A stretch of DNA of 64,000 nt, from positions 72,001 through 136,000 of the forward strand of contig NZ_OY761823.1 in assembly GCF_963664965.1 (NCBI RefSeq), written 5' to 3'. The notes under the pieces are model-generated. The model did not search any database. It was not told the origin of the DNA and saw only the letters and a list, made by a program, of their open reading frames with translations. The position numbers and the translations under genes were made by a program. Positions 25,763 to 50,002 of this stretch are shown here, in pieces; position 1 is the stretch's first letter; each line of letters opens with the position of its first letter. Source of the stretch: an uncultured Pseudodesulfovibrio sp. Its GTDB lineage: Bacteria; Desulfobacterota; Desulfovibrionia; Desulfovibrionales; Desulfovibrionaceae.

Positions 25763-27679
25763 ATGTTCTCTTTCAAGAAAAGCCTCATACTCAAAATCAG
25801 CGCTGTCGTTTTCCTTGTGGAATTCCTTGTTCTCACATCGCTGGGCCTTTTCTACACAGAACTCTTTTCACACCAGATCGACGAATACCTCGAATCGAGC
25901 ATACAACTTCCGGGCGAACTCATGAATCGCCGCGTACTCAGATATGAAACCGTGGCCGACACCGACGCCATGGCCGATATTCTGGGTGATGAATTCCTCG
26001 AAGGCCTGATCGTCGGAGAAGGTGGACATATCTACTTCGCTTCCGATCCCGACCGAGTGAATAAATCCATTGCCGACATCCCCGGCATAGACGCCTCCCT
26101 GTTCACCGACAACGACTCTCAGCAACTCATCCGAACGACCGAGGATGGACGTCCGGTCATCATTTCGATTACCCCGCTGAGCGCATACGAAGGGGCCGAA
26201 CCTTTTTTTCAAGTCTACATCAAAGCCGGAGTCAACAACGCCCGGGACGCCAAGATCCGCATAACCCTCCTGTTCATTCTCGGCTCGGCCTTCTGCATCA
26301 TACTGACCTCACTCGCCATCATCGGCTACTCCCGCCGACACGTCACAGCCCCGCTGAGCAAGCTCACGAAAAACGCCGACGCACTGCAAAAAGGCAACCT
26401 TGACGTCAAAATATCCATTGACCGTCAGGACGAAATAGGCCGCCTTGCAGACAGTTTTTCCAACATGCGGGATTCCATCGCCCGCCAGATAGCGGAACTT
26501 GAAAACGCCAATGAATCCATCAGCCGCAACGAGCAGCAGCTCAACGCATTGATCCAGGCCATGCCGGACCTTCTGCTCGTTCTCGACAAGGAAGGCCGCT
26601 ATCTGGAAATATACACTTCACAAACCAACCTTCTGGCAGCAGACGCCAAGGCACTGAAGGGATCCCTGCTGCACGAGAAGCTTCCGGAGGACTTGGCGAA
26701 CAATTTTCTCACGGCAATCCAGACCACACTGGAAACCGGCACGGTCCAGTCCATTGAATACGAACTCACGATTCCCATCGGAACACGCTGGTTCGAAGCC
26801 CGCATATCTCCCATCAACTACACGGATGGAAGACAGGACTGCATATGGCTTGTGCGCGACATGACCGAACATAAGGACATGGAAAAACGTCTGCTGCAAT
26901 CCAAGGAAGAACTGGAAAGCGCCAACCTCCGCCTTACCGAACTCGATCAAATCAAGTCCGCGCTCGTCTCGTCGGTTTCCCATGAGCTTCGCACGCCACT
27001 CACGTCCCTGCTCGGCTTCTCCAAGCTCATTCTCAAGAATTTCTCCAAACACTATTGGCCGCTTGCAAAAGACGACCACAAACTCCTGACCAAAGGTTCC
27101 CAGATCGTTGAAAACCTGAATATCCTGATCCACGAAGGCGATCGTCTGACCCGGCTCATCAACGATGTTCTGGATCTCAATAAAATAGAAATGGGCTACA
27201 CCGAATGGCGCAAGGAGAAAATCAGTCCGGACGAACTCGCCAAACGCGCGATCGACGCCGTCAGCGGACAGTTCGACAACAACCCGGACCTTTCTCTCGT
27301 CAGCGACGTTGCCGACGACCTGCCCAGCCTCGTCATTGACGGCGACAAGATACTTCAGGTGCTGCTCAACCTGCTCACCAACGCGGCCAAGTTCACCCCT
27401 GAAGGCATCGTCACACTCAAGGTCCACTCTCCCTTCACGGAAGTCGTCCGCTTCGAAGTCGCTGACACCGGGCCGGGAATCGCCCCCGAAGAACAGGAAC
27501 GCATCTTCGAACGCTTCCACCAGATCGGACACAACGACCCGGCAGGCGACAAACCCCACGGCGCGGGCCTCGGCCTTGCCATCTGCCGTGAAATCGTCGC
27601 CCATCACAATGGCTCCATCTGGGTCGAATCCGTTCTCGGGCACGGAGCGACCTTCATCATTGAATTGCCGGTGAAATAA
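25763..27679 (+). CDS. Membrane sensor histidine kinase with HAMP and PAS domains
   Basis: A 638-residue inner-membrane kinase. Two membrane helices (about 10-30 and 168-188) bound a periplasmic sensing domain. They are followed by a HAMP linker, a PAS-type domain (about 260-370), and a HisKA region with the phosphorylated histidine H407 in SSVSHELRTPLTSL. The ATP-binding domain shows LLNLLTNAAKF, DTGPGI and GAGLGLAICREI. No response regulator is adjacent: the neighbours are rpmB and a SHOCT protein, so it is an orphan kinase and its partner must lie elsewhere. Confidence 0.92.
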   Translation: MFSFKKSLILKISAVVFLVEFLVLTSLGLFYTELFSHQIDEYLESSIQLPGELMNRRVLRYETVADTDAMADILGDEFLEGLIVGEGGHIYFASDPDRVNKSIADIPGIDASLFTDNDSQQLIRTTEDGRPVIISITPLSAYEGAEPFFQVYIKAGVNNARDAKIRITLLFILGSAFCIILTSLAIIGYSRRHVTAPLSKLTKNADALQKGNLDVKISIDRQDEIGRLADSFSNMRDSIARQIAELENANESISRNEQQLNALIQAMPDLLLVLDKEGRYLEIYTSQTNLLAADAKALKGSLLHEKLPEDLANNFLTAIQTTLETGTVQSIEYELTIPIGTRWFEARISPINYTDGRQDCIWLVRDMTEHKDMEKRLLQSKEELESANLRLTELDQIKSALVSSVSHELRTPLTSLLGFSKLILKNFSKHYWPLAKDDHKLLTKGSQIVENLNILIHEGDRLTRLINDVLDLNKIEMGYTEWRKEKISPDELAKRAIDAVSGQFDNNPDLSLVSDVADDLPSLVIDGDKILQVLLNLLTNAAKFTPEGIVTLKVHSPFTEVVRFEVADTGPGIAPEEQERIFERFHQIGHNDPAGDKPHGAGLGLAICREIVAHHNGSIWVESVLGHGATFIIELPVK

Positions 27680-27758
27680 CATCAAGCAGGGGCACCCTGC
27701 ACAATTCTGCCGGGAAACTTCAAGAAAGCATCCCCCAAAGTGCAATCCACAACACCGA

Positions 27759-27799
27759 TTGCACGCAGGGCTTTGCACATCTGCACACATCAGCACATC
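27759..27799 (+). promoter_or_regulatory. TGCACA repeat cluster, probable activator sites (SHOCT gene)
   Basis: The stretch holds TTGCAC at 27759, then TGCACATC, TGCACACATC and AGCACATC in a row at 27774-27799. It lies 42-82 bases upstream of a sigma-54 promoter. A similar cluster lies upstream of the zraP-like sigma-54 promoter at 37 kb. Confidence 0.5.
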
Positions 27800-27840: not shown

Positions 27841-27855
27841 TGGCACGCTCCCTGC
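27841..27855 (+). promoter_or_regulatory. Sigma-54 promoter
   Basis: TGGCACGCTCCCTGC matches the sigma-54 consensus TGGCACG-N4-TTGC at all but one position, with GG and GC at the correct distance. It lies 31 bases before the SHOCT gene start, so the leader would be about 20 bases. Confidence 0.85.
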
Positions 27856-27885
27856 TTATCAATCCGAAAAGCAGGAGACAATTAC

Positions 27886-28158
27886 ATGAGCCTACTCACA
27901 ACATCAGCCAGTTGGTGCGGCGGACCGGGATTATGGCACGGCGGCCAGAGCTGGTTCGGAGGAATGGGATTTCATTTCGGCGGAATCATCCAGCTCCTTG
28001 TCATCGGCCTGATCATATATTTCACCGTCCGGCTGCTCAAAAGGGATACCGCGCCTTCATCCGCGTCCTCTTCGGCAGACGACATCCTGAAACAACGATA
28101 CGCCTCAGGCGAAATCGATAAAGATACATTCCAGAGCATGAAAGAAGAGTTGAAATAG
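27886..28158 (+). CDS. SHOCT-domain small membrane protein
   Basis: A 90-residue protein. The N-terminus is rich in Gly, Trp and His (SWCGGPGLWHGGQSWFGGMG), followed by one membrane helix (IIQLLVIGLIIYFTVRLL) and a C-terminal SHOCT motif (DDILKQRYASGEIDKDTFQSMKEEL). SHOCT segments are short helical modules, often at the end of membrane or oligomeric proteins. GCAGGAG about ten bases before the ATG supports the start. A near-perfect sigma-54 promoter directly upstream and TGCACA repeats shared with the zraP-like gene suggest induction by the Zra-type system. The function is not known. Confidence 0.82.
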   Translation: MSLLTTSASWCGGPGLWHGGQSWFGGMGFHFGGIIQLLVIGLIIYFTVRLLKRDTAPSSASSSADDILKQRYASGEIDKDTFQSMKEELK

Positions 28159-32197: not shown

Positions 32198-33583
32198 CTA
32201 ACGACGCGTCAGGCCGTACTTTTTCAGTTTGTACTGCAAGGTTCGGCGGCTGATCCCAAGCGCGTCCGCCGTGCGTTCACGATGGTTGCCGTTCTCTTCC
32301 AGCGCACGCATGATGGCGAGCTTCTCCGCCTCTTCGAGTGACGCAGGAGTACTCATGGCCGACGGGGACGCCTCGGTAGACATGTCTATGGCCGCCTCGC
32401 GCGCCCCGGTCACCTGCGGAGGCAGAAGGTCGGGACCGAGCGCATCCGAACGCGACAGGATCAACGCGCGTTCCAGCACATTCTCCAGTTCACGCACGTT
32501 ACCGGGCCAGTCATACCCGGACAGCGCGTCGAGAAACGCGGGAGTGACGGTACGGATAATCTTGTTGTTCTTGTTGCCGAGCCGACGCAGCAGGAAGCTG
32601 ACCAGAAGCGGCAGGTCTTCCTTGCGCTCGCACAGCGGCGGGATGCGTATTTCAAGCACTGCCAGCCGATAGAAAAGGTCTTCACGAAAACGTCCGGCCT
32701 CGACTTCGGCCTTCAGGTTGCGGTTGGTGGCGGCGATGATCCGGGTGTCCACCTTGATCGTCTTGACCGACCCGAGCGGCTCCACGGTCTTTTCCTGCAA
32801 CGCGCGCAGCAGTTTCGCCTGTAACGCCGCAGGCATTTCACCTATCTCATCAAGGAACAGCGTGCCGCCGTCCGCCAACTGGAACCGGCCCGGTTTATCC
32901 TTTATCGCGCCGGTGAACGCGCCTTTCTCATATCCGAAAAGTTCACTTTCAAGCAGGTCATCCGGCAGGGCCGCACAGTTCACCTTGATCAGCGGCCTGT
33001 CCGCACGGTTGCTCGCACGGTGCAGCCCCTCGGCCACCAGTTCCTTACCTGTTCCCGACTGTCCGAGAATCAGCACGGTCGCCTCGGTCGGTCCGGCCTG
33101 ACTTATCAGGTCACGCACCCGCTCAATGCCCGGACTCGCACCGATAAAGTCGGCGCTGCTGTCCACTTCGGCCCGAAGCCGTGCGTTTTCCTTGATGAGC
33201 TTATGGTACTCGTAGGCCTTGCCGATCACTGCCGTGAGTTCGTCGTTGTCCGCGGGCTTGGTCAGATAGTCGAACGCACCGCGCTTCATGGCATCCACTG
33301 CGCTGCCCACGCTGCCGAACGCCGTCAGCAGGACCACGGGTAGCCCCGGCCTGCGAATCTGCAATTCCTTGAGCAACTGCATGCCATCCATACCGGGCAT
33401 TTTCATGTCGACCATGGCGACATCCGGGAAGGTATCGGATTCGGCCTCTTCAGCCAGAACCGTCAACGCCCGTTCGCCGGAATCCGCTTCAAGCACGGTC
33501 CAGCCGTCGTCTTCCAGAACAGCCCGGACCATCATCCGGTGTCCCGGCTCATCATCAACTATGAGTACAATTCTTTCGTCCAT
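32198..33583 (-). CDS. NtrC-family sigma-54 response regulator (ZraR-like)
   Basis: A 461-residue activator. The receiver domain has the phosphorylated D59 (AMVDMKMPG) and K109. The AAA+ domain has the Walker A box ILGQSGTGKE and the sigma-54 contact loop GAFTGA at 221-226, with Walker B LFLDEIGEMP. A Fis-type helix-turn-helix ends the chain (HRERTADALGISRRTLQYKLKKYG). GGAGG stands before the ATG at 33583. It follows the sensor kinase on the same strand, making a ZraS/ZraR-type pair. The probable targets are the two sigma-54 promoters found at 27.8 and 37.2 kb. Confidence 0.95.
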   Translation of the reverse strand: MDERIVLIVDDEPGHRMMVRAVLEDDGWTVLEADSGERALTVLAEEAESDTFPDVAMVDMKMPGMDGMQLLKELQIRRPGLPVVLLTAFGSVGSAVDAMKRGAFDYLTKPADNDELTAVIGKAYEYHKLIKENARLRAEVDSSADFIGASPGIERVRDLISQAGPTEATVLILGQSGTGKELVAEGLHRASNRADRPLIKVNCAALPDDLLESELFGYEKGAFTGAIKDKPGRFQLADGGTLFLDEIGEMPAALQAKLLRALQEKTVEPLGSVKTIKVDTRIIAATNRNLKAEVEAGRFREDLFYRLAVLEIRIPPLCERKEDLPLLVSFLLRRLGNKNNKIIRTVTPAFLDALSGYDWPGNVRELENVLERALILSRSDALGPDLLPPQVTGAREAAIDMSTEASPSAMSTPASLEEAEKLAIMRALEENGNHRERTADALGISRRTLQYKLKKYGLTRR

Positions 33584-33732
33584 TTTCAGCCTCCGCGGCC
33601 CTTTCGGAAAATCCGGAAGAGAGGTCGCACATTGTATCATTTCGTCACGGCCTGCGTTCGCATCAATCCGCAACGGGTCGTTCATAAAAATCTTTTCAAT
33701 GAAACACACCGCCATGGGCGGCCTGTTTCATC

Positions 33733-35610
33733 CTATCCCTTCTGCTCCACATCCGGGAAAAAAAGGCGAATTCGTGTTCCTTCGCCGGGTTCGGAATCCA
33801 CAGCGACCCGGCCCCGGTGTGCCCGCATGATATTGTCGACGATGGCAAGCCCGAGTCCTGTACCGGTCTTCTTGCCGGTAACAAACGGCTTGAACACCTC
33901 GTCACGAATCTCGGGATTCATGCCGGGGCCGTCGTCAGCCACGATGATCCAGACACCATCGTCCGCCCGAACCGAGGAAAGGCTGATATGTCCGGGAGTG
34001 GGACAATCGTCACAGGCACCCAACGCATCAAGGCTGTTGGAAATCAGATTGAGCAGCACCTGCTTGAGGGCGTCCTGATCGGCCATCACGGTTTCGCACC
34101 TGAAATCGAAAACCGGCTCGGTCTGCCTGTTCTCGAAATCGAAGCGCATGAGTTGGCGGATGGAATCCCCCAGCTCGGCGAGATCAATCGCAACGGGGTC
34201 GAGCTGACGCGGCTTGGCGAGATAGAGAAGGTCCGTGACCACGCGGTTGAGGCGGTCCGCCTCCTGCACCATGGTGGTGGCATACTGTTCCAACGGCTGC
34301 TGGCCCTTGAGCTTGTTGGCGAACAGTTGGGCAAACCCGCGCAGGGAACTGAGCGGGTTACGCACTTCATGGGCCACGCCCGCGGCAAGGGAACCGACGG
34401 CGGCGAGCCGCTGCGCCTCGTTCAGGTCCTCCTCAAGGGACCGAATCTGGGTTCGGTCACGAATGAGCACGAGCCGCTGACCGAGTTCCGGCGCGGCATC
34501 TTCATCACTCTCCTGAAAAGGCAGGGAAAGAATTTCAAGCCTGCGCCCCTGATAATCGAACTGCTGCCAGTCCGTCGGGGCGAGAGGCGTGTCATCGAAA
34601 CGGGAACCGAACGCGAGGTCACGCCAGTTAGAGCCGATGATCTCTGGAATACCGTCCTCATCCTTGGGCGCGAGGAGTTTCTTGGCCGAATGGTTGGCAG
34701 CCATGATCTGTCCGTCCTCGGCAAGGGTCACGAGGCCATCCGGCATATTGTCGAGAAGCTTGTTCTGGAAACGCTCCATCCGGTCGAGCTTGCGTCCTTC
34801 GCCCCGGCGCTGAAGGTAGGCGAATACGAGGGACCACAGCACCACGGCGGCGAGAAACACGTAGCCGGTCTGGTAAATGGCGGCGCTGCGATATTGGCGA
34901 AACTGCGCCATATGCTTCTGGGCGTTCAGGCCGACAACGAGATAAACATGCGGCAACCCCGCATCCATGGGAGGATTATCGTTTCCCGGCCCCATGCCAT
35001 GGCCCGGTCCCATGCCGCGCCCCCGACCTCGTCCCATGCCGTGGCCCATGCCGCGCTCCGCTTCGGGCACATGATTCTCATCCGGGCGGACACTCTTGTG
35101 CCGCAGTGGCGGGGTCGACCCAAAGGAAAGGCGGGCAACGGACGGCCGGACACGCAGGCCGGAAATGAGTACCTGATTCTTTTCGAATTCAGCCATGACA
35201 TGCCATGCCCGCCCCACTTCAAGGTCCGCAGCCACGGTTTCAGGCAGGCTGAATGTCGGTTTGGAACGGTCGGCATCGGAAGTGATGATCGGCGTATCGC
35301 CACCGCCGTACATGGCGATGAATTTTATGTCTTCGGAACGTGCAAGCTCTGTAAAAAGTTCTCCCACCATGGTCGGAAAAAGAGGCGCAGCCTGAGGGTT
35401 CATGCTCAGACTACGCATGATGCGGGAGATATTGCTGTCCACACCGCGCAGAATGGAACTGCCGGTCATTATCATGTTTTCCTCGACGATCTCACGCTGA
35501 TGCGCGATGGAGCGCCATGTCAGGTACAGACTGCCGAGACCGAGCACTATGAGTGCCAGGACAAGGGCGACAAGCGGCCCCTTTTCTCCGCTGTAGGAGT
35601 GGACTTCCAT
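33733..35610 (-). CDS. Sensor histidine kinase (ZraS-like) with Gly-Met-Arg-rich insert
   Basis: A 625-residue inner-membrane kinase. Helix 1 spans about 12-31 and helix 2 about 247-265, bounding a periplasmic sensor. A PAS-type region follows (FQNKLLDNMPDGLVTLAEDG), then the HisKA histidine in AAGVAHEVRNPLSSLRGF, and the ATPase motifs LLNLISNSLDALG, DDGPGMNP and GTGLGLAIVDNI. Residues 187-209 of the sensor are a low-complexity run of Gly, Met, His and Arg (GMGHGMGRGRG...). The ZraP-like protein two genes away ends in a similar GRGMGRGMGRGF tail. It starts nine bases after the DUF4405 gene stop and precedes the NtrC-type regulator. Confidence 0.93.
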   Translation of the reverse strand: MEVHSYSGEKGPLVALVLALIVLGLGSLYLTWRSIAHQREIVEENMIMTGSSILRGVDSNISRIMRSLSMNPQAAPLFPTMVGELFTELARSEDIKFIAMYGGGDTPIITSDADRSKPTFSLPETVAADLEVGRAWHVMAEFEKNQVLISGLRVRPSVARLSFGSTPPLRHKSVRPDENHVPEAERGMGHGMGRGRGRGMGPGHGMGPGNDNPPMDAGLPHVYLVVGLNAQKHMAQFRQYRSAAIYQTGYVFLAAVVLWSLVFAYLQRRGEGRKLDRMERFQNKLLDNMPDGLVTLAEDGQIMAANHSAKKLLAPKDEDGIPEIIGSNWRDLAFGSRFDDTPLAPTDWQQFDYQGRRLEILSLPFQESDEDAAPELGQRLVLIRDRTQIRSLEEDLNEAQRLAAVGSLAAGVAHEVRNPLSSLRGFAQLFANKLKGQQPLEQYATTMVQEADRLNRVVTDLLYLAKPRQLDPVAIDLAELGDSIRQLMRFDFENRQTEPVFDFRCETVMADQDALKQVLLNLISNSLDALGACDDCPTPGHISLSSVRADDGVWIIVADDGPGMNPEIRDEVFKPFVTGKKTGTGLGLAIVDNIMRAHRGRVAVDSEPGEGTRIRLFFPDVEQKG

Positions 35611-35619
35611 TCAATTTTC

Positions 35620-36438
35620 CTATTGTCCGCGAAGTGCGGAATAAACATCACGGGGAACCATGCCGTTCTTGTTTGCGATCTCCTTCATGGACAGATCGGG
35701 AGTGGCGGCAATCCCCTTTTCGGCAAGCCGCGCAAGCGCAGCGTCCACGGGAAGCCCGAAACTGCGGCAGACATCCGTGAGGGCGACCTTGCCCAAGCCT
35801 TCCGGCGGCTTCGGCGGCATGGATGCAAAGGGATCCTTTACAAGCACCTTGCGGATATCGTCATACACCTGTTGCGGGCTGACGTCACGGGAAGTGGCGA
35901 TGTCGCGAATTTCCGTATCCACCGTGATCTCGGCGGGATACCCTGCCGCCCGGAGCGCGGCCAGAGCGTCATTCACATCAAAACCGAGATACCCGCAGAA
36001 CTTCGTGAGGGAACTCTGCTCGGCATGACCGTACGGCGGATTGCCATAGACCTTTACGGCGTCATCCTTGATGGAAAGTCCGAAATCGAGAAACTGCTGC
36101 ATGGGCGGCAGGTGCAGGAGCGTACCCACGGCGACGAACAGGGTGATGACCACACTGACGATCATGGGAGCCGTCATGACGACCATCTCACGCGCCTTGT
36201 TCTTCATGTAGGCCATGAGCGGCTTCCAGTTCAGCCAGAGGTGCAGCAGGAGCGCGATGACAAACAGGGTTCCGACCGTGATGTGGACATCACCCCACTG
36301 TTCCTTGGACAATCCCCAGAAACGCCATTCGGCCCAGTAGGCGACGCGGCCATGAGGCACAATGTACAAAATCACGCTGGTAAGGAGCGTGATGACGAAA
36401 GACAGAAAGCTGGTAAGGGAACAGACTTTGCGAAGCAT
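35620..36438 (-). CDS. DUF4405 membrane protein with duplicated C-terminal domain
   Basis: A 272-residue protein. The N-terminal part is a DUF4405 region with about three membrane helices (LTSFLSFVITLLTSVILYIV, VGTLFVIALLLHLWLN, VSVVITLFVAVGTLLHL) and histidines (DVHITVG, LLHLWLN, LLHL) that could bind heme. The soluble C-terminal part contains two related units of about 50 residues: LTKFCGYLGFDVNDALAALR...VSPQQVYDDIRK and LTDVCRSFGLPVDAALARLA...MVPRDVYSALR. It lies between the zraP-like gene and the sensor kinase on the same strand, nine bases before the kinase, so it is part of the Zra-type locus. Confidence 0.85.
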   Translation of the reverse strand: MLRKVCSLTSFLSFVITLLTSVILYIVPHGRVAYWAEWRFWGLSKEQWGDVHITVGTLFVIALLLHLWLNWKPLMAYMKNKAREMVVMTAPMIVSVVITLFVAVGTLLHLPPMQQFLDFGLSIKDDAVKVYGNPPYGHAEQSSLTKFCGYLGFDVNDALAALRAAGYPAEITVDTEIRDIATSRDVSPQQVYDDIRKVLVKDPFASMPPKPPEGLGKVALTDVCRSFGLPVDAALARLAEKGIAATPDLSMKEIANKNGMVPRDVYSALRGQ

Positions 36439-36534: not shown

Positions 36535-36570
36535 TCGGGACGGCCCTTCCCCGTGAAAGGCCGTCCCGTC
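36535..36570 (-). terminator. Hairpin between zraP-like and DUF4405 genes
   Basis: GGGACGGCCCTT / AAGGCCGTCCC forms a strong stem without a good T-run on either strand. It may cause partial termination so that the zraP-like gene is transcribed more than the genes below it. Confidence 0.5.
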
Positions 36571-36602: not shown

Positions 36603-37157
36603 TTACGAGTTGAATCCGCGGCCCATGCCTCGTCCCATGCCTCGGCCATTGCCGAGACCGGGGCAGTCACCGTAACCGGCACCGCCTCGGGGGCCAGCTC
36701 CGAAACCGCACTGGCCGCCGGGGCCGAAGCCACCGCATTGACCGCCACCGAATCCACGACCCATGACAAGGCCGGTTTCCTTCTCAATTTCACTGAAGGT
36801 CTTGTCGCGAAGTTCCTGCATCTTGACGCGCAGTTCGCTCATTTCATTCACGATCTTACCGATCTTCTTTTCGTTGGAATTGCCGTCGTTGACCATGGCT
36901 TCCAGCACGGTGTGCTTGGTCAGCATGGCGTTGCGAAGTTCGGTCATCTCCCCTCTGTGCTTGGCGAAGATGGCATCCACGGCAGCACGCTTTTCCGGGG
37001 TAAGCTGGCTGTATCCAGCACGCATGCCCGGTCCATCGCCGTTACAGCCACGTCCCTTGCCCTGCCCGTAGGCAAAAGCGAAAGAACTCAGCGCCAGAAT
37101 CAGCAACGCGGACAGCGGGACAATCATCATGTTCTTCTTGGTGACAGCTTTGGTCAT
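36603..37157 (-). CDS. ZraP-like periplasmic metal-associated chaperone
   Basis: A 184-residue exported protein with a signal peptide (MIVPLSALLILALSSFAFA). The middle is the helical ZraP/CpxP-type domain (LTPEKRAAVDAIFAKHRGEMTELRNAML, then MSELRVKMQELRDKTFSEIEKE). The C-terminal 50 residues are rich in Gly, Arg and Met with several Cys (GGGQCGGFGPGGQCG, then GRGMGRGMGRGFNS). In enterics ZraP binds zinc, acts as a chaperone and represses ZraSR. TTTGGAGGAAACG precedes the ATG at 37157. A sigma-54 promoter and TGCACA repeats upstream fit control by the neighbouring NtrC-type regulator. Confidence 0.88.
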   Translation of the reverse strand: MTKAVTKKNMMIVPLSALLILALSSFAFAYGQGKGRGCNGDGPGMRAGYSQLTPEKRAAVDAIFAKHRGEMTELRNAMLTKHTVLEAMVNDGNSNEKKIGKIVNEMSELRVKMQELRDKTFSEIEKETGLVMGRGFGGGQCGGFGPGGQCGFGAGPRGGAGYGDCPGLGNGRGMGRGMGRGFNS

Positions 37158-37223
37158 GGTCGTTTCCTCCAAAGGTTGTTTTTTCATGCAATCAGGAAAG
37201 TGTGTTAGTTTGACCTGTTTAAA

Positions 37224-37238
37224 GCACAGTCTGTGCCA
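37224..37238 (-). promoter_or_regulatory. Sigma-54 promoter of the zraP-like gene
   Basis: On the minus strand TGGCACAGACTGTGC keeps TGGCAC and TGC at sigma-54 spacing and is followed by TTT. It lies 67 bases before the zraP-like start. The core GCACAG / CTGTGC is also a small inverted repeat. Confidence 0.85.
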
Positions 37239-37313
37239 AACTTTTTTATACAATGATTACAAGATGAAACAACTTCAAGACACAAACAGGACATTGATAT
37301 TTGTGCCAACCGC

Positions 37314-37350
37314 TGCACATCAGATTGCACAAAACGTGCACAGAGTGCAA
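37314..37350 (-). promoter_or_regulatory. TGCACA repeat cluster, probable activator sites (zraP-like gene)
   Basis: The stretch holds TGCACATC at 37314, TTGCACAA at 37325, GTGCACAG at 37336 and AGTGCAAG near 37345. It lies 76-112 bases upstream of the sigma-54 promoter, the distance usual for NtrC-type enhancers. The same motif precedes the SHOCT gene promoter. Confidence 0.55.
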
Positions 37351-37426
37351 GGATAAACCGCCTTGACATCTCGCGACACGACACCACATTTGTCATAGAC
37401 AAAAGAAATCAACCAAAGGACGCACC

Positions 37427-37639
37427 ATGCCTATTTATGAATACGTCTGTGCCGATTGCGAAAACGAGTTCGAGGAACTCGTCTTTTCCCATGACGAAAC
37501 CCCGCCCTGCCCCAAGTGCGGATCAAGGAACGTGACCAAGCTCATGAGCGCGGGAGTCGTGAAAACCGAAAGCGGCACACCGGATCTCGGTCCCATGCCA
37601 CCCATGGGCGGAGGCTGCGGCAGCAGCGGCGGTGGCTGA
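37427..37639 (+). CDS. FmdB-family zinc ribbon protein
   Basis: A 70-residue protein starting MPIYEYVCADCENEFEELV with a second cysteine pair in PPCPKCGSRNVTKLMS, the FmdB regulatory-protein zinc ribbon. The tail is a Gly/Ser/Met linker (MPPMGGGCGSSGGG). Its exact role is unknown. TTGACA at 37372 may be part of its promoter. It is divergent from the zraP-like gene, so the intergenic region holds control elements for both. A paralogue lies at 49.6 kb. Confidence 0.88.
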   Translation: MPIYEYVCADCENEFEELVFSHDETPPCPKCGSRNVTKLMSAGVVKTESGTPDLGPMPPMGGGCGSSGGG

Positions 37640-49628: not shown

Positions 49629-49889
49629 TTAGGAACCGCAACTGGAGCAATCGCCACCCGAACAACCGGCACAGCCGGAAGAGGCGGAAGAAGGCGAGGA
49701 CTGAATGCCGCCGCTGTCATCGCCGCCGGTATCGGGACGGAAACCGCCCACCTTGGCGCGAACCGCGCTCATGAGCTTGCCGGTTTTTTCCGATGAGCAT
49801 TTGGGGCAGGCCGGACATTCGTCCCGGTCAAAAACGAGTTCCTCGAATTCGTGGCCGCAGTCATTACACTTGTATTCGAATATGGGCAT
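49629..49889 (-). CDS. FmdB-family zinc ribbon protein, paralogue 2
   Basis: An 86-residue protein starting MPIFEYKCNDCGHEFEELVF with the second pair PACPKCSSEKTGKLMS. The tail is long and rich in Gly, Ser and Cys (SGCAGCSGGDCSSCGS), with four more cysteines that could bind metal. The ATG at 49889 has GGAG nine bases upstream. It is the paralogue of the protein at 37.4 kb and sits 27 bases upstream of hemC. Confidence 0.88.
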   Translation of the reverse strand: MPIFEYKCNDCGHEFEELVFDRDECPACPKCSSEKTGKLMSAVRAKVGGFRPDTGGDDSGGIQSSPSSASSGCAGCSGGDCSSCGS

Positions 49890-50002
49890 GATGTGCTCCG
49901 ATCCTTGATTATTTATACCGGATACGCCCCGGCAGACGGTCTCCATATCTGAAAAGGCATGGACTGGCAACGATTGCACCGCCGTGGGAAATGTAAGAAT
50001 TG

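Follow-up and report, generated by a model that had tools for sequence, protein, structure and literature searches.

In Escherichia coli, the direct targets given for the response regulator ZraR are zraP, zraSR, and mgtA (available sections of PMC7657598). For Desulfovibrio vulgaris Hildenborough, the accessible parts of two studies describe comparable regulons. The regulator DVU3381 has a binding motif that was tested by gel shift, and its listed targets are DVU3382-DVU3381 and DVU3384, under the label 'envelope stress response' (PMC3333781, PMC4641369). A second regulator, DVU0621, is reported there to target DVU3384 too (PMC3333781). The regulator DVU1419, of a three-gene operon, is given the targets DVU0036, DVU1418-DVU1419, and an ncRNA upstream of DVU3282 (PMC4641369; PMC3333781, legend of Fig. 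2), and its regulon is labelled 'envelope stress response, posttranscriptional regulation' (PMC4641369). When the literature was searched under DVU locus names, these were the only two papers found.

We analyzed a stretch of 64,000 nucleotides from an uncultured Pseudodesulfovibrio sp., hereafter called the window, where four genes succeed one another on the minus strand. The first encodes a ZraP-like protein of 184 amino acids (36603..37157; Metal_resist PF13801, Pfam E 1.3e-16). It is followed by the gene of a DUF4405 membrane protein (35620..36438; Pfam E 1.3e-18), which is probably in the same operon, then by a ZraS-like sensor histidine kinase (33733..35610) with HisKA and HATPase_c domains, a weak PAS match, and a His/Met/Gly/Arg-rich stretch, and finally by a ZraR-like NtrC-type response regulator (32198..33715; Response_reg, Sigma54_activat, HTH_8). 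The annotated start of the regulator at 33715 is provisional, and the portion aligned with its orthologues begins at 33580. The layout is that of a ZraPSR-like system, with a Metal_resist protein, a kinase, and an NtrC-type regulator adjoining, and a sigma-54 promoter at zraP. When compared with the NCBIfam equivalog models, the proteins score 52.6 bits vs a cut-off of 200 for ZraP (NF008584), 224.3 vs 479 for ZraS (NF007688), and 415.3 vs 760 for ZraR (NF007689). The regulator scores higher on the AtoC and NtrC models than on the ZraR one, and is under their cut-offs as well. The ZraP-like protein exceeds the threshold of the broader PF13801 domain (61.4 vs 29.2). Hence, the system is ZraPSR-like in its parts and lies outside these curated equivalogs.

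Two details of these genes deserve mention. The ZraP-like protein has a Gly/Met/Arg-rich tail (GRGMGRGMGRG) similar to a segment of the kinase (ERGMGHGMGRGRGRGMGPGHGMGPG), which could point to metal binding or to mimicry. Between zraP and the DUF4405 gene there is a GC-rich inverted repeat (36536-36568), which on the minus strand lacks a clear run of T and may serve within the operon as a partial terminator or as a processing site.

The original prediction placed a sigma-54 promoter at 37224-37238 on the minus strand, upstream of the zraP-like gene, and half-sites 76-112 bases further upstream. The promoter sequence TGGCACAGACTGTGC is indeed found at 37238-37224 on this strand. As a 16-mer it reads TGGCACAGACTGTGCT (37223..37238) and scores 27 out of 30 on the simple home-made consensus with which we scored sigma-54 sites (maximum 30). 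The half-sites TGCACATC (37314), TTGCACAA (37325), GTGCACAG (37336), and GTGCAA (37345) precede the -24 element at distances of 76-111 bases. Together they make an array of overlapping or adjacent TGCAC/GTGCA half-sites on the minus strand (37314..37349) that is conserved in the genus and is the putative enhancer (UAS) of zraP. Measured upstream from the promoter 16-mer, the half-sites of the zraP array peak at 57, 69, 80, 91-92, 102-103, and 110-111 nt, a spacing of mostly about 11 bp, or around one helical turn. The upstream region is common to zraP and to a divergent gene encoding a small FmdB-type zinc-ribbon protein (37427-37639, plus strand). Another small protein judged by eye to be of the FmdB zinc-ribbon type is encoded at 49629-49979 (minus strand).

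A second promoter with the same clustered word had been announced 9.5 kb away. It is present at a distance of 9.4 kb, on the plus strand (TGGCACGCTCCCTGCT, 27841..27856), and scores 28 out of 30. The half-sites clustered upstream start at 27740, 27760, 27774, and 27782, making up a conserved array (27740..27786, plus strand), with an extra half-site at 27698. This promoter precedes a gene encoding a SHOCT-domain protein of 90 amino acids (27886..28158, plus strand; PF09851, E 6.9e-7), which by eye has a Gly/His-rich N-terminus and one probable membrane segment. Relatives of this protein at E <= 0.001 were found in 38 of 60 genomes. The gene immediately 5' of it encodes a HAMP-PAS sensor kinase (25763-27679, plus strand). 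The motif had also been said to differ from the enteric ZraR site, and this is borne out by the zraP-zraS intergenic region of E. coli K-12, which has no TGCAC/GTGCA half-site and carries GAGTAAAAATGACTC-type inverted repeats, which we take to be the ZraR sites.

Arrays of this sort might arise by chance, if a common word happened to cluster close to sequences resembling sigma-54 sites. Across the window TGCACA shows no enrichment (27 matches vs 35.8 in shuffles), and sigma-54-like hexamers are common there. Ten sites score 26 or more out of 30, and the eight that are not the zraP and SHOCT promoters score 26-27. A scan allowing up to 2 mismatches gave 41 matches vs 34.6 expected. Hence, sigma-54 hexamers are not exceptional by themselves, and since TGCACA alone is not enriched, the claims must stand on clustering and conservation. 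The clustering is indeed exceptional: at least four half-sites in 60 bp are found at exactly two places of the window, the SHOCT and zraP promoters, whereas Markov-shuffled windows have on average 0.015 such clusters, with a maximum of 1 in any of 200 shuffles. Along with these counts and the near-zero controls, the conservation described below, which covers three promoters and tens of species, refutes chance clustering, to which we give almost no credence. One sigma-54-like site of the window (35558-35543, minus strand), inside the start of the kinase gene, scores 27 out of 30 with no half-site in the 160 bp upstream, and was put down to chance.

We then searched the whole genome of the same organism for clustered repeats near sigma-54 promoters, as had been suggested with the original prediction. 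Seven distinct places have three TGCA half-sites in a span of 56 bp (1 match per strand in the backward-pattern control), and three of these are near a sigma-54 promoter: those of SHOCT and zraP and a new locus, treated below. The four others (G000:C1:751011, 1787789, 2102472, and 3521468, G000 being the genome of the window) have no sigma-54 site scoring at least 25 within 600 bp, which counts against the explanation that we propose.

The regulator has an orthologue in 34 of the 35 other genomes of the genus, with 78-94% identity, two of the matches being partial. No close match was found in the thirty-fifth (G029). We fetched the 34 regulator loci and, with the window, obtained a set of 35, in which tblastn identifies zraP in 33, DUF4405 in 28, and SHOCT in 23. 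Of the two loci lacking a zraP match, one is on a contig that breaks off within the kinase gene (L068), and the other nonetheless has an array and a promoter upstream of DUF4405 (L092). Among the 35 loci examined, the 33 with zraP all show a sigma-54 site with a score of 26 or more out of 30, preceded within 160 bp by 3 to 8 half-sites. Similarly, 22 of the 23 SHOCT loci have a sigma-54 site with at least three half-sites, and the promoter of the exception scores 25. A separate set of 30 SHOCT loci gave 27 positives; of the three misses, two come from other families and one is again this genome. For comparison, the 35 loci of the genus have 91 other sigma-54-like sites, of which 7 are accompanied by at least three half-sites, and some of these 7 are probably real, in species that have a cluster downstream of the regulator without a recognised SHOCT. 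The array-plus-promoter pattern is present in all 36 genomes of the genus (195 overlapping match rows vs 2 for the backward control). The conservation of the motif at both promoters throughout the genus, its presence at kinase-regulator promoters of other families (see below), and its scarcity at other sigma-54-like sites of the same loci strongly support the shared regulon motif that had been predicted.

In three genomes (G016, G023, and G013), an array-plus-promoter near the regulator and on the same contig (L195, L197, and L201, respectively) is followed by a short C/T-rich sequence and a hairpin-like end, rather than by a recognised SHOCT gene.

The new locus, found by following the array motif through the window's own genome, is an unlinked third target, 208 kb away, which the original prediction had missed. 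The array (G000:C1:317550-317611) has TGGCACACCGTGTGCT downstream, then a 64-codon ORF outside the window (L120:7274-7465, minus strand, corresponding to G000:C1:317273-317464), a C-rich 3' tract, and a hairpin. This small ORF has relatives in 30 of the 36 genomes of the genus, with lengths of 62-68 codons. A profile search in the remaining 312 of the 348 genomes of the order found none, aside from five marginal matches in as many genomes (E 0.001-0.01), which we dismissed as noise together with one at E 0.019. The ORF has no match in Pfam (to E 1) or NCBIfam (to E 0.01). In the 22 of 31 copies that were aligned, the small protein has a hydrophobic N-terminal segment, then LLRRSLLTDPDA, and a C-terminal P-H-P region.

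Several measures bear on the nature of this ORF. The first in-frame stop comes after 62-68 codons in all 31 copies. Over a fixed stretch of 177 nt, the copies with a stop number 0 of 31 in frame 0, 29 in frame +1, and 22 in frame +2. All 60 internal gap runs of the fixed-length alignment are multiples of 3. When the ORFs are cut at their own stop, the amino-acid identity and the mean substitution score are above those of all 200 column shuffles. For codons 2-31 alone, 3 of 200 column shuffles are free of stops in every row, with a mean of 14.5 of the 31 rows having one. The divergence by codon position (0.32, 0.32, 0.36) gives no coding signal. Judged from these alignments, the small ORF is coding.

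The promoter of this gene is extremely close to the start codon. In 31 copies from 29 genomes, the distance from the sigma-54 16-mer to the ATG is 10 nt (1 copy), 11 nt (24), or 12 nt (6). In the thirtieth genome the contig begins just upstream, and by eye the promoter is again followed by 11 nt to the ATG. Sigma-54 transcription usually starts about 12 nt past the -12 base. Hence, the leader should measure 0-2 nt, and the small protein would be made from a nearly leaderless message, which makes for an unusual gene. In two genomes (G002 and G015; loci L183 and L186), the small ORFs come as tandem units, each with its own array and promoter. Another genome has a second copy (G032:C1:2035981-2036223, minus strand), where an array-plus-promoter match is followed by a weak small-ORF match interrupted by one TAG; this copy is apparently decaying.

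The 3' part of the locus is also conserved. Between the stop and the hairpin, CCTCC occurs in 31 of the 31 copies, with a mean of 1.87 vs 0.26 in shuffles (for one copy, in which no stem was found, the first 90 nt were taken), and all 21 aligned rows (21 of 31 copies) have CCTCCT unchanged. It is followed by a terminator hairpin of the GGCCGC...GCGGCC type, where pairing of the stem is kept through double changes at 4 of 11 pairs. Three single copies fold 2.7 to 4.2 standard deviations under shuffles, essentially owing to this hairpin. For the six genomes of the genus without the small-ORF family, one array-plus-promoter locus was taken from each; all six are followed by C/T-rich sequence, with an exact CCTCC within 404 nt in 5 of the 6. 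A different possible ORF is found in four of these loci (L194, L196, L198, L199) and no clear ORF in two (L193, L200). A scan of 8 loci against Rfam gave 10 matches up to E 1, none at its gathering score. Within the accessible portion of the literature on leaderless sigma-54 small proteins, CCUCC sRNAs, and Pseudodesulfovibrio sRNA, nothing on this system was found.

To follow the system beyond the genus, we scanned named genomes with generic activator peptides. This gave one useful orthologue, the regulator of Humidesulfovibrio, with 70% identity; the other 79 loci have 47% or less. Humidesulfovibrio has a PF13801 gene behind one array. Another array is followed by a sigma-54 promoter, then by CCTCCTCCTCC tracts and a hairpin like that described above, and no ORF reaching 40 codons begins within the first 130 nt. 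Humidesulfovibrio also encodes a Met-rich protein of 98 amino acids, with a likely signal peptide (by eye) and no Pfam family (L293:1695-1988, plus strand), behind a sigma-54 site and two half-sites; it is a possible further member of the regulon.

In 24 genomes from other families, our first pattern, with a gap of 40-70 bp between array and promoter, had no match (0/24), because the spacing is longer in these families. After viewing the loci we revised the pattern: the promoter was now sought 58-88 bp from the array, GTGCA replaced TGTGCA as the second half-site, and the inner gap was widened from 5-18 to 3-25. As the revision was made on 5 kinase-regulator loci, the search is blind only for other places in the 24 genomes. 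The revised pattern occurs in 6 of the 24, exactly once in each, and backward controls are empty. Five matches are upstream of kinase-regulator genes, and in 3 of these loci tblastn recognises zraP; the sixth is at an unlinked PF13801 gene. Among the 13 genomes whose regulator match has E < 1e-150 (58-62% identity), 6 have the pattern, vs 0 of the 11 without such a match (Fisher p 0.016).

These results bear on whether a different sigma-54 activator could bind the arrays, the adjoining ZraR-like regulator being coincidental or one of several inputs. The genome has 27 PF00158 matches, and as 25 of them are strong, another activator could bind. There is also the precedent of DVU0621, named as second regulator of DVU3384 in the accessible text of PMC3333781. 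However, the ZraR-like regulator accounts for the single PF00158 match that falls in the window, in agreement with the one NtrC-type activator of the original prediction, and in other families the pattern is seen only together with a close regulator match and beside it 5 times out of 6. We consider the involvement of another activator to be rather improbable, and the TGCAC/GTGCA arrays to be very likely the enhancer of the neighbouring ZraR-like regulator. Counting against this explanation, 7 of the 13 genomes of other families that have a close regulator match lack the pattern.

Within the family, the pattern is present in 75 of 149 genomes, belonging to 27 of 44 genera, and its absence from the 74 other genomes also counts against the explanation. 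The backward control gave 0 matches, and since it scrambles the sigma-54 part too, it overstates the specificity. From the family list we hand-picked 20 loci (12 genomes, 9 other genera), favouring genomes with two matches. Eleven of them stand before PF13801 genes and 7, judged by eye, before no clear gene. One precedes a cytochrome b-like gene, with PF00033 barely over its cut-off and DUF4405 below, and one a Gly-rich protein without family. CCTCC is found within 200 nt in 5 of the 7 loci without clear gene vs 2 of the 13 others. The division of these loci suggests that one and the same array is often used both for a ZraP-like gene and for an apparent RNA gene.

The third locus could still be an ordinary gene for a small protein whose 3' UTR is long, in which case the C-rich tract would be a mere 3' region and there would be no regulatory RNA. 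The coding constraint on the ORF, seen in its stops, frames, gap runs, and shuffles, fits this interpretation, which we find plausible without being probable. The excess of CCTCC in every copy and the invariant CCTCCT argue against it, as do the Humidesulfovibrio locus, where array, promoter, CCTCC tracts, and hairpin come without a 40-codon ORF, and the 7 of 20 hand-picked loci with no clear gene past the promoter. Given these observations, we think that a small-RNA arm is likely. Its fullest form, which we put forward tentatively and with somewhat less than even confidence, is a sigma-54-driven dual-function RNA. Its 5' part would be a leaderless or near-leaderless mRNA for a single-helix membrane protein, induced by stress and belonging to an undescribed family, and its 3' part a C-rich sequence imitating the anti-Shine-Dalgarno end of 16S rRNA, the non-coding form being ancestral and the ORF having been gained in one genus.

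The explanation that we favour, and in which we have good confidence as a whole, is that the ZraR-like regulator uses the arrays as UAS to control three targets, including the RNA arm. The ZraS-like kinase would sense envelope or metal stress, leading to the phosphorylation of the regulator. The phosphorylated regulator would assemble on the array, whose half-sites at zraP are about one helical turn apart, and would contact RNA polymerase-sigma-54 some 60-110 bp downstream. This would turn on zraP, probably together with the DUF4405, kinase, and regulator genes, in a positive autoregulation. It would also turn on the SHOCT membrane protein and the unlinked transcript. In most of the genus, the latter would give a near-leaderless protein of 62-68 amino acids with one hydrophobic segment, and would end in a C-rich, CCUCC-bearing tract and a terminator. 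In a relative, it would be C-rich and without ORF. Through its CCUCC tract it may act on Shine-Dalgarno sequences, most likely pairing with those of selected mRNAs and so repressing their translation. If so, a ZraPSR-like system would reach beyond protein repair and include a probable small-RNA arm, and the arrays provide a candidate binding site, open to experiment, for a widely conserved sigma-54 envelope-stress regulator.

This system resembles the enteric ZraPSR in having a Metal_resist-type protein, a sensor kinase, and a sigma-54 response regulator. It differs from it in gene order, since zraP of E. coli is divergent from zraSR whereas here the zraP-like gene, DUF4405, the kinase, and the regulator are on one strand. 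It further differs in the DUF4405 and SHOCT proteins and the small-RNA arm, which the available sections of PMC7657598 do not list. Among the D. vulgaris regulators, which we compared by their descriptions in the accessible text, DVU3381 is alike in being a two-component sigma-54 activator with GAFTGA that targets its own operon and a nearby gene; unlike here, the parts of PMC3333781 and PMC4641369 available to us list no third target for it. DVU1419, as described in the same sections, is alike in being a sigma-54 response regulator whose targets are its own operon and an ncRNA. The set of loci defined here by sequence would allow a comparison with this undescribed 'ncRNA upstream of DVU3282'. 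Comparable regulons of D. vulgaris are already published; the novelty here lies in the array and how widely it is conserved, in the SHOCT gene as a member, and in an RNA that is apparently dual.
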